IMG/VR virus record: IMGVR_UViG_3300028857_000007
Coordinates: 1 to 61,170 of that record
Length of the DNA: 61,170 nucleotides
Direction: 5' to 3' (one strand)
Source: a virus
The notes below the pieces were generated by a model. It was not told the DNA's origin, made no database searches, and saw only the letters and a program-made list of their open reading frames with translations. Below, in pieces: positions 39,957 to 61,086 of the stretch (its first letter is position 1; every line of letters starts with the position of its first letter). The translations under genes were made by a program, and so were the position numbers.

Positions 39957-40026
39957 GGGAGTGTAGCTCAAAGGTAGAGCACAACATTTTATGTTGAGGG
40001 TGATGGTTCGAGTCCATTTGGTCCCA
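39957..40026 (+). tRNA. tRNA gene, probable Lys (anticodon UUU), slightly non-canonical
   Basis: The 70-nt cloverleaf has acceptor GGGAGTG with TGGTCCC (one G-G mismatch, G-U at two pairs), D-arm GCTC-loop-GAGC, T-arm GATGG-TTCGAGT-CCATT, and discriminator A. The anticodon arm reads as ACAAC/GTTGA around loop ATTTTAT, with U33 and anticodon UUU. This uses an A-A first pair and leaves no base 26. The CCA end is not encoded. The isotype is therefore moderately certain; the tRNA identity itself is strong. Confidence 0.7.
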
Positions 40027-40051
40027 CTAATATCAATAAACAATTATTACA

Positions 40052-58261: not shown

Positions 58262-58588
58262 ATGTCAGAAGAGAAATTTGATTTATGGTGTATGGTTGAA
58301 TTATTCGGCCATAATAAGATTGCTGGTAAATGTACTGAGCAAAATATAGCAGGAACTAATATGCTTCGTGTAGATGTTCCAGAAACAACAAAACAACCGG
58401 CCTTTACTAAGTTCTATAATGGAACAGCTATTTATGCAATTAATCCAATTACTGAAGAAGTAGCTACTGATTTAGCAAATAGATTTGAAAGCACACCAGT
58501 ATCAGTTTATGAAGTAAAAAATATGATTAAACGTAATATATTAGAATTAGAAGAAAAAGAACCTTTACCATGGGAGGATGAAAAATGA
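58262..58588 (+). CDS. Hypothetical protein (108 aa), widespread phage type
   Basis: The pattern FGHNKIAGKCTEQNIAG, MLRVDVPETTKQPAFTKFYN and AIYAINPITEEVATDLANRF is one I recognise as a small domain seen in phages and mobile elements of Bacteroidota, but its function is not known to me. The C-terminus is acidic (ELEEKEPLPWEDEK). It overlaps the next gene by 4 nt. Confidence 0.55.
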   Translation: MSEEKFDLWCMVELFGHNKIAGKCTEQNIAGTNMLRVDVPETTKQPAFTKFYNGTAIYAINPITEEVATDLANRFESTPVSVYEVKNMIKRNILELEEKEPLPWEDEK

Positions 58589-58767
58589 ACAAAGAAAATA
58601 TTAAACGTGCAAATGAACTTGAAAAAGAAATAAAAGACCTTGAAGTATTAATTCCATACATTGATGCTTGTTTAAACAAATCAGAAGATGGATTTAATGG
58701 AATACAAATTGTTCTTTCATCATCTGGTTATGAAAAAAGCATATACAAAAATTCGTTCCTCAATTAA
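58585..58767 (+). CDS. Small helical protein (60 aa), apparently frameshifted before its natural end
   Basis: Begins MNKENIKRANELEKEIKDLE; the reading frame stops at 58767 right after a run of five A (58748-58752). In the -1 frame the coding sequence continues smoothly as KFVPQLMPVIAIIAKDEIRK and further to a TAA at 58845, ending 10 nt before the next gene. The combined product would be about 87 residues with a coiled-coil tail. This points to a one-base loss in a homopolymer (or an assembly error) in an otherwise intact gene. Confidence 0.6.
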   Translation: MNKENIKRANELEKEIKDLEVLIPYIDACLNKSEDGFNGIQIVLSSSGYEKSIYKNSFLN

Positions 58768-58857: not shown

Positions 58858-60336
58858 ATGTCACAAGAAATTAAAATTCATATCAAAAATTACAAACTTC
58901 TCAAAGAGGGAGAATGGGATTTATCAAATGGTACTATCTTCTTCGCACAAGGCGGAAACAAAAAAGGTAAAACTTCTTTCTTGAATCTTATCCAAGCACT
59001 CATGGAAGTAAAAGATACTACTGTCAATCCAGTAACCTTTGGTGAGAAAGAAGGATTTGCTACCGGTACAATACCTGGCGCTGATGGTTTACAATACCAA
59101 TTCCGTTATGACTTCAATATTGATGGAAAGAACAAATTTCAGTTCATTGCTCCAGACAATAAAGTTGTCAAAGGAATTACTGAAATGCGCGCTATCTTCA
59201 ACTATACTCACTTCACATTGGAAGAGTTCTTTGAATGGAGTAAAACAGAACCGGGCCGTGCTAAACAACGTGCTATCTTCATGAACTTACTTTCTGAGAA
59301 AGACCGTGAAGAGATTTTGAAAATTGATGCTCAGGTTCATCCAACCAAAGGTACAATGATTGACTCGCGCAAAGTATTGAATGCATCTGTTGACTTCTTG
59401 AAAAAGAGTATTGACAATATCGTATTCAATCCGGAACAACAAAAGCTTATTACTGATGCGCCGGCGATTCAAACTTTGTTTACTGAACTTACTGCTCGTA
59501 AAGAAGTAATTGATGAAACAATCAAAGGATTCGATACTTATCAAGTGAAGTTGGATGCAGAAAATGCAAAACTGGATCCATTAAAAAAATCGCATGATAA
59601 ACAAGTGGAAAGTCTTACTAATTCTATTCGTTTTGCCAAAGAGGAAATTGAACGCCTTACCAAAGAGTTGGCAGCTGATGAAAAGAAATTGGAAACTGAG
59701 AATGCTGAGTACGAAACTTCTGAAAAAGCAATCACTGCAGCAATCACTGAATTGAATACTAAGTTCGATGTAAAAGTACTTGAAGCTGCAAAATTGGAAT
59801 TAGATGGTGATGGTACTGAAAAGAATATCGGTCTTGCTAAACGATTAGAGATTGGCCAAACAAAAATCAATCAGTATAATCAATTGGATGTATTGGTAAA
59901 ACAAAAAGCAAAGAATGAAGAAGATTATAAGAAGAAGGAAAGTGAAGTTAGTGAGTTGGACGAGAAGATTACGACTCTCCGCACCAAGAAGAAGGAAATC
60001 ATCAAAAACAGCCAGAACATGCCGGTTGGTTGGTCGATTGATGATGATTATGTTACTATCGATAATATTCCTTTTCTGGAAACTGATATTTGTAAGTCGG
60101 AAGCGACTGCTGCGATTGCTCAATTGATGATGCGCGTCAATAAGGCTCCATTGATGCTTATGGGCGATGCTGAGGCCTTGGGATATGAAGTACTCAATAA
60201 GCTTGAGGAAACAGCTAAAAGTCTTGGTAAGGTAATGCTATTCGCTGAACATGTTCGTTCTGCTGATGAAATGCAATTGGTTTGCTACGATGAAGTTGAT
60301 CATGAAGTAAAGAAAGAAGAGAAAGAATTGTTTTAA
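58858..60336 (+). CDS. SbcC/Rad50-like AAA ATPase (492 aa)
   Basis: N-terminal Walker A QGGNKKGKTSF (31-41) with an N-terminal strand pattern (IKIHIKNYKLLKEGEWDLSN) typical of SMC/RecF/SbcC-type ATPases. A long coiled-coil centre (residues about 230-390) follows. Near the C-terminus APLMLMGDAEALG (about 434-446) fits a Walker B region, then a terminal KVMLFAEHVRSADE. Half-length compared with full SbcC, so possibly a phage DNA-repair or recombination ATPase (gp46-like class). No nuclease partner is seen in this window. Confidence 0.78.
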   Translation: MSQEIKIHIKNYKLLKEGEWDLSNGTIFFAQGGNKKGKTSFLNLIQALMEVKDTTVNPVTFGEKEGFATGTIPGADGLQYQFRYDFNIDGKNKFQFIAPDNKVVKGITEMRAIFNYTHFTLEEFFEWSKTEPGRAKQRAIFMNLLSEKDREEILKIDAQVHPTKGTMIDSRKVLNASVDFLKKSIDNIVFNPEQQKLITDAPAIQTLFTELTARKEVIDETIKGFDTYQVKLDAENAKLDPLKKSHDKQVESLTNSIRFAKEEIERLTKELAADEKKLETENAEYETSEKAITAAITELNTKFDVKVLEAAKLELDGDGTEKNIGLAKRLEIGQTKINQYNQLDVLVKQKAKNEEDYKKKESEVSELDEKITTLRTKKKEIIKNSQNMPVGWSIDDDYVTIDNIPFLETDICKSEATAAIAQLMMRVNKAPLMLMGDAEALGYEVLNKLEETAKSLGKVMLFAEHVRSADEMQLVCYDEVDHEVKKEEKELF

Positions 60337-60377
60337 TAACTAAAACCTAGTGCGGTATAGGTAAGCCAATAATAATT

Positions 60378-60719
60378 ATGGATTTTAATCATGCAATTAA
60401 AACTTATCCAATGATTCAAAGAATTGGATGGAATGGTAAAGGACTATTTGTATTTCAACAAGTACCTTCTGAGATACCAATAGCTGTTGTTCCGAAAATG
60501 CAATCATTACCTGAAGCAGTAAAATGTGAATTTACTCGTCGCTATGATTTAGCTAGTGATAATGGGAATAAAATGATGCAAAATAATAGCCCATTTTTGA
60601 CTATTCGTTACAACTATCAATTAGCAATAGTTGATAAAGAAAACAACATCAATGGATGGGCGCCTTCTGTTTCTGATGCATTGGCCGAAGATTGGATTGA
60701 ATATATACCGGAGGTTTAA
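60378..60719 (+). CDS. DUF2829-family, Tad2-like protein: candidate anti-Thoeris factor (113 aa)
   Basis: Two signature blocks are clear: the N-terminal AIKTYPMIQRIGWNGKGLFV (R15-x-GWNGKG at 17-22) and the C-terminal GWAPSVSDALAEDWIEY (93-109). This is the DUF2829 pattern (GWNGKG ... GW-x-PS-x-x-D-x-LAEDW). Members of this family (Tad2) bind and sequester the nucleotide signal gcADPR and so block Thoeris immunity. It lies alone in an accessory position between the ATPase gene and the right edge. The family match is seen; activity in this phage is inferred. Confidence 0.75.
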   Translation: MDFNHAIKTYPMIQRIGWNGKGLFVFQQVPSEIPIAVVPKMQSLPEAVKCEFTRRYDLASDNGNKMMQNNSPFLTIRYNYQLAIVDKENNINGWAPSVSDALAEDWIEYIPEV

Positions 60720-60720
60720 A

Positions 60721-61086
60721 ATGGGAAAAGTATCAACAATTGATACCAAACGCAATCTTTGTGGTAGTTACAAAAGCAGCTACCCTGATTGCACTGGTCA
60801 GCCGGAGTTTGGAGATAATGTCGGAAATGATAATGTTATCCGATGTAATAAGTATACAAAGAAAAAAACGAATGTCATTCGCGTAGCAGTAGGTGAAGAG
60901 TATTTTGTTTATGTTCTGAAAGATCAAAATGTTTCTATGAATGATTTCATTTCAAGAAAACGTGTAGAAACAAACAACACTACAGATAATCTGTATTATG
61001 AAGTTGGAAACTATTTTCTAACAGAGGGAGATTGTAATGAAGAGATTGAACGAGTAACAAAATTGAAGAAAAATGGCACAAGGTAA
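60721..61086 (+). CDS. Hypothetical protein (121 aa)
   Basis: The start at 60721 (MGKVSTIDTKRNLCGSYKSS) is 1 nt after the Tad2-like stop; an upstream in-frame start (60631) would lie inside that gene. Alpha/beta, with VNRV-type strand VIRVAVGEEYFVYVLKDQN and a charged C-terminus. The last 14 nt overlap the next gene. Function unknown; coupled to the anti-defence candidate. Confidence 0.5.
   Translation: MGKVSTIDTKRNLCGSYKSSYPDCTGQPEFGDNVGNDNVIRCNKYTKKKTNVIRVAVGEEYFVYVLKDQNVSMNDFISRKRVETNNTTDNLYYEVGNYFLTEGDCNEEIERVTKLKKNGTR

Follow-up and report, generated by a model that had tools for sequence, protein, structure and literature searches.

A candidate anti-Thoeris protein of the Tad2 family, with a long insertion, in a crAss-like phage

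In the human gut, crAss-like phages rank among the most abundant phages. The question raised by the locus described here is whether a small gene in one such phage encodes a protein that disarms Thoeris, a host defence triggered by NAD-derived signals, and which signals that protein might bind. The sequence analysed, called the window below, is the complete virus contig record IMGVR_UViG_3300028857_000007 of IMG/VR (61,170 bases). We confirmed the open reading frame at 60378-60719 (plus strand), which has an ATG start and encodes 113 amino acids. A 100% identical protein is encoded by four further contigs, and five sibling contigs carry an allele that is 75% identical to the window protein. Because the same protein or allele recurs in these other contigs, the gene in the window is not an assembly artefact.

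A Tad2-family protein of a crAss-like phage

The original prediction placed the protein in DUF2829, now named Tad2-like (PF11195), and described both signature blocks of that family. The profile search agreed with this assignment (E = 6.8e-11; 43 bits compared to a curated cut-off of 25), and both blocks, RxGWNGKG and WxPSxxDxxxxDW, were found. All matches in a sequence search of the PDB were Tad2 proteins: SptTad2 (6.4e-11), HgmTad2, also known as AcrIIA7 (1.8e-9), MoTad2 (1.3e-8) and SPO1 Tad2 (8.8e-6). With a profile of 71 homologues, the corresponding values were 1.4e-36, 2.8e-37, 5.3e-22 and 1.1e-20. PADLOC and NCBIfam scans gave nothing useful for tad2.

The predicted structure pointed to the same family. 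An AlphaFold (AF2) model of the 113-residue protein had a pLDDT of 90.6 and a pTM of 0.74, and showed the Tad2 fold with the pocket loops in place. A structure search with this model recovered 24 chains at E ≤ 0.001, all 24 of them Tad2 (TMt 0.56-0.73). The top structures were 8kbk, with 1',2'-cADPR and cGG (2.4e-8), and 8wjd, with cGG (4.8e-8), followed by MoTad2 with hisADPR and then SPO1 Tad2 with gcADPR. TM-scores against the best Tad2 chains were moderate (0.62-0.71). Judged by sequence and predicted fold together, the protein is a genuine member of the Tad2 family.

The phage is crAss-like, as originally proposed, by its capsid (Crass_capsid, PF23898, 7.6e-30), terminase (phrog_6681, 3.6e-60) and portal (phrog_6547, 3.2e-41). 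Its capsid is at best ~26% identical to those of named phages; no named phage was close at the DNA level, and the 36-61 kb part had no near match. We assume from the phage order that the host belongs to the Bacteroidota. A single tRNA-Lys (TTT) gene lies at 39957-40027 of the window, after a switch from minus-strand to plus-strand genes. In an 86-kb relative (G001), an open reading frame of 4,280 amino acids followed by one of 1,561 amino acids (L218:24-12866) occupies a part of the genome that the window lacks or truncates; together they presumably encode the giant RNA polymerase that crAss-like phages carry in the virion.

The gene had been proposed to link crAss-like phages to Thoeris evasion in Bacteroidota. 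To call it a first connection of these phages to Tad2 would be an overstatement: our literature search found no paper joining the two, but many crAss-like records carry Tad2. In a sample of 50 records chosen for carrying Tad2, 11 had a match to the crAss capsid, and terminase and portal matches raised the number of crAss-like records to ~17, including the two of this phage group, so that ~15 other crAss-like records carry Tad2. One of them is csAssE-Sib, with a DUF2829 protein. A protein of crAssphage ctbg_1 (A0A345MSY5) is already named Tad2-like in UniProt. The connection is thus real and recurrent, and was already latent in the databases. One of the Tad2-carrying records (G020; 174,147 bases, the record behind L070) has a crAss-type terminase and portal and many in-frame TAG codons, 13 of them in the terminase, and appears from its sequence to be a stop-recoded crAss-like phage.

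Pocket motifs, insertion and position in the Tad2 tree

In known Tad2 proteins, the gcADPR pocket is formed by loops beta1-beta2, beta3-beta4 and beta4-alpha3, together with strand beta4 and helix alpha3 (PMC12043709). The N-terminal signature of the window protein, RIGWNGKG (residues 15-22; 60420-60443, plus strand), reads R15-x-G-W-N-G-K-G22 and lies in loop beta1-beta2 in the model. The C-terminal signature, NGWAPSVSDALAEDWI (residues 92-107; 60651-60698, plus strand), reads N92-G-W-A-P-S-V-S-D-A-L-A-E-D-W106, with W94-L102 lying in loop beta4-alpha3 and helix alpha3. Both would contribute to a pocket for ADPR-type signals. Eight residues in these blocks are invariant across the 71 homologues: R15, G17, W18, G20, W94, D100, D105 and W106. 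The window protein and MoTad2 share the pocket loop PSVSD, compared to PSQTD in SPO1 Tad2 and ASQTD in HgmTad2 and SptTad2. Position 99 is mostly Ser outside the HgmTad2-like rows of the alignment, and Gln-Thr is usual at positions 98-99 within them.

In HgmTad2 and SptTad2, a long insertion between beta2 and beta5 forms a second ligand site, for dinucleotides (PMC12043709). Alignment to 8kbi and 8wjd places such an insertion at approximately residues 29-74 of the window protein (60462-60599, plus strand). It includes PKMQSLPEAVK (residues 39-49), in which the SLP motif is conserved; among the 71 homologues, S43 and K49 are invariant and L44 and P45 are conserved in >90%. The conserved residues of the pocket and the insertion are putative ligand contacts in this protein.

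The segment of helix alpha1 and strand beta1, F3-R15 (60384-60422, plus strand), lacks 3 residues that are usual in the family. It is 13 residues long in the window protein and in the sibling allele, compared to 16 in 68 of the 71 homologues. Because known Tad2 tetramers are interlocked through helix alpha1 (PMC12043709), the assembly of this protein may differ from theirs.

In a tree of 83 Tad2 rows, all four structurally characterised Tad2 proteins fell in one set of 30 rows (support 98/96), and the window protein fell outside it. Its nearest rows were uncharacterised insertion-type proteins, and it did not group with HgmTad2 and SptTad2. Because the set containing the solved proteins excludes the window protein, any function assigned here is transferred onto a branch without a characterised member. 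The distribution of Tad2 among phages was interspersed, and the tree forces at least six changes between the labels "crAss" and "other", which were assigned from the capsid only. Because many contigs labelled "other" are fragments or are crAss-like by terminase and portal, we do not claim a number of acquisitions by crAss-like phages.

The tad2 locus and a sibling RyR-domain gene

The surroundings of tad2 are, by their sequence matches, a replication and recombination block. Upstream are genes for DnaB-like helicase, ParB, methyltransferase-like and SMC-like proteins; the last, an SMC/AAA-like coiled-coil protein at 58858-60336 (plus strand; phrog_1499, 1.3e-24), is 97% identical in the sibling phage, with a dN/dS of 0.07. 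Past the end of the window, relatives encode a RusA-like resolvase and PcfJ/PcfK-like proteins. Among the scanned proteins adjoining the tad2 locus, there were no products of NAD-synthesis (NARP1-like) genes. A second spot that varies between the window and the sibling phage lies at 58262-58767, where the window has two small open reading frames (108 and 60 amino acids) ahead of the SMC-like gene; most of this stretch is absent from the sibling, which has other sequence instead.

The SMC-like gene and tad2 are separated by a 41-nt gap in the window (60337-60377). All five sibling contigs have at this site a gene for a 122-residue RyR-domain protein (PF02026, 6.1e-9; L006:7591-7959). Phage RyR-domain proteins such as RyDEP defeat Thoeris by cleaving or sequestering 2'cADPR and 3'cADPR, and H75, W78, H100 and D117 are the key ligand and catalytic residues of RyDEP (2026 preprint, PMC13232231). 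H69, W72, H94 and D111 of the sibling protein have identical spacing, making it a candidate by which a crAss-like phage would evade Thoeris in the manner of RyDEP. Because the RyR gene belongs to a family that disarms Thoeris signals, its presence beside tad2 gives independent support for a role of tad2 against ADPR-type signals. A general linkage of RyR and Tad2 did not hold up. The pairing is lineage-specific, since RyR occurred only in the sibling group among the 50 tad2 records and five other RyR records lacked Tad2. The window phage has no RyR gene at this site, and no PF02026 match was found in the 86-kb relative.

Comparison of the leaders suggests how the site might change. A leader, ACCTAGTGCGGTATAGGTAA, precedes tad2 in the gap (60345-60364, plus strand), and a similar one precedes the sibling RyR gene: the RyR leader (ACTAGAACCT...GGTATAGGTAA) resembles the tad2 leader (ACTAAAACCT...GGTATAGGTAA). 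There is one copy of GGTATAGGTAA in the window, and there are two, 410 nt apart, in the sibling loci. At the window junction, sequence from the left part of the RyR leader is joined to the tad2 leader. The RyR cassette may have been lost or gained by recombination between the two leaders. The leader was also considered as a stable RNA hairpin and rejected, as its stability was not above that of shuffled sequences.

The gene downstream of tad2 (60721-61086, plus strand; 121 amino acids, with a cysteine-bearing N-terminus) had been put forward as a possible partner. The open reading frame is real, with a 1-nt gap to tad2 and a GGAGG ribosome-binding site inside the tad2 end. However, its product had no matches in Pfam, PHROG, NCBIfam or PADLOC and no convincing relative in the phage collection outside this phage group, the gene was not found at 16 other tad2 loci tested, and the single-sequence structure model was unusable (pLDDT 36). 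With no family, no usable fold and a distribution confined to this phage group, we set it aside as a partner; the sibling RyR gene is the better companion. The protein has cysteines C14, C24 and C42, and the sibling adds C17 (CGNC, compared to CGSY here), a pattern that suggests a metal-binding cluster differing in the window phage.

Proposed function and comparison with known systems

The likeliest function of the protein is that of a nucleotide sponge against Thoeris, possibly for two kinds of ligand. Taking sequence and model together, we think it quite probable that it is a Tad2-family sponge of signals made by TIR proteins, probably with a second, dinucleotide site. The protein would fold as a Tad2 protomer and work as an oligomer; the conserved pocket of W18, W94 and D100 would bind NAD-derived signals from host TIR proteins; and with the signal sequestered, the NAD-depleting Thoeris effector would not be triggered. 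The long insertion probably adds a site for cyclic dinucleotides of the CBASS/STING type, as in HgmTad2 and SptTad2. Pairwise dN/dS between the sibling lineages, a weak test on such short genes, was 0.51 for tad2, compared to 0.07 for the SMC-like gene, 0.18 for the methyltransferase, 0.31 for ParB and 0.39 for the downstream gene. The tad2 gene is evolving faster than its neighbours, as expected of an arms-race gene.

The anti-Thoeris role in the original prediction therefore stands as the leading one, on the family, the fold and the sibling RyR gene; its choice of gcADPR as the ligand was overstated, because proteins of the insertion class also bind cyclic dinucleotides and the PSVSD loop resembles that of MoTad2, a His-ADPR binder. 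That the main ADPR-type ligand is instead His-ADPR, the signal of type II Thoeris, is a tentative reading to which we give somewhat less than an even chance. The loop is identical to that of MoTad2, which was solved with hisADPR (9eib), and differs from those of cADPR and gcADPR binders; the preference for Ser at position 99 outside the HgmTad2-like rows fits as well. Against this reading, the comparison covers only three proteins whose ADPR-type ligand is known, the loop residues are putative contacts, and the RyR family that adjoins tad2 in the siblings acts on cADPR isomers (PMC13232231). We regard it as unlikely that cyclic dinucleotides of CBASS/STING systems are the main targets, with the ADPR pocket secondary. 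Both by fold and by single-sequence search, the protein comes nearest to the cGG binders 8kbk and 8wjd, two insertion residues (S43 and K49) are invariant in the 71 homologues, and SptTad2 slightly activates Panoptes, which its authors read as sequestration of 2',3'-c-di-AMP (PMC12657218). Nevertheless, the best-conserved parts of the protein are the ADPR pocket motifs, and its branch lies apart from HgmTad2 and SptTad2.

Two other roles would take the protein out of immune signalling. The location of tad2 inside a block with DnaB, ParB, methyltransferase, SMC-like and RusA genes, and the shortened alpha1, would suit a Tad2 fold repurposed for phage replication, its pocket kept for a housekeeping nucleotide. 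The fast evolution of tad2 relative to these neighbours, its interspersed distribution and the RyR gene in the same slot in siblings make this improbable. Inhibition of Cas9 is suggested by the deposition of HgmTad2, among the closest relatives, as the anti-CRISPR AcrIIA7. We give this very little credence: AcrIIA7 is one of the Acrs for which a review notes that reports conflict (PMC13131331), and it is nucleotide signals that occupy the ligand-bound structures of the family.

Returning to the sponge, a more specific proposal, offered as speculation that is rather unlikely to hold in all its parts, is that an uncharacterised insertion-type Tad2 branch, recurrent in crAss-like phages, forms oligomers with shortened alpha1 that combine a His-ADPR-type pocket and a site for dinucleotides, and that the preceding slot, flanked by repeated leaders, is a site for swappable cassettes, where an RyR-type gene for degrading or binding signals is gained or lost. 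If so, sponge and enzyme would be combined at the locus as host signals change. The present evidence indicates that proteins of the Tad2 type are recurrent in many lineages of crAss-like phages and that in one of these an RyR-type gene of a family directed at Thoeris signals lies at the same locus. The insertion branch of the window protein has no characterised members in the PDB. This branch and the RyR/tad2 locus are the most useful additions of the present analysis.

The window protein has the fold and signature blocks of SPO1 Tad2 (8sme-8smg), the founding member, which lacks the dinucleotide insertion and so has less sequence between the blocks, has a PSQTD loop and is 24-28% identical in fold alignments. 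HgmTad2/AcrIIA7 (8kbi, 8kbj, 8kbk), the best structural match, also has the long insertion with SLP; it differs in its identity of ~30%, its ASQTD loop, its supported branch apart and its full-length alpha1. SptTad2 (8wjd), the best single-sequence PDB match and of the insertion class, has VKSLPDAVK where the window protein has MQSLPEAVK, but its loop is ASQTD and it lies on a different branch. MoTad2 (9eib, 8v3e), from a prophage of Myroides (Bacteroidota), shares the PSVSD loop and the LAEDW helix end, whereas it has 88 amino acids without the long insertion, belongs to another branch and has His-ADPR as its ligand. RyDEP, a mycobacteriophage RyR-domain glycosidase of Thoeris signals (PMC13232231), has a homologue with four of four key residues before the sibling tad2, although none was found in the window phage or its 86-kb relative. 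The Tad2 proteins of csAssE-Sib and ctbg_1 share both family and phage order with the window protein; that of csAssE-Sib falls in the HgmTad2 set, whereas the window protein lies outside it.
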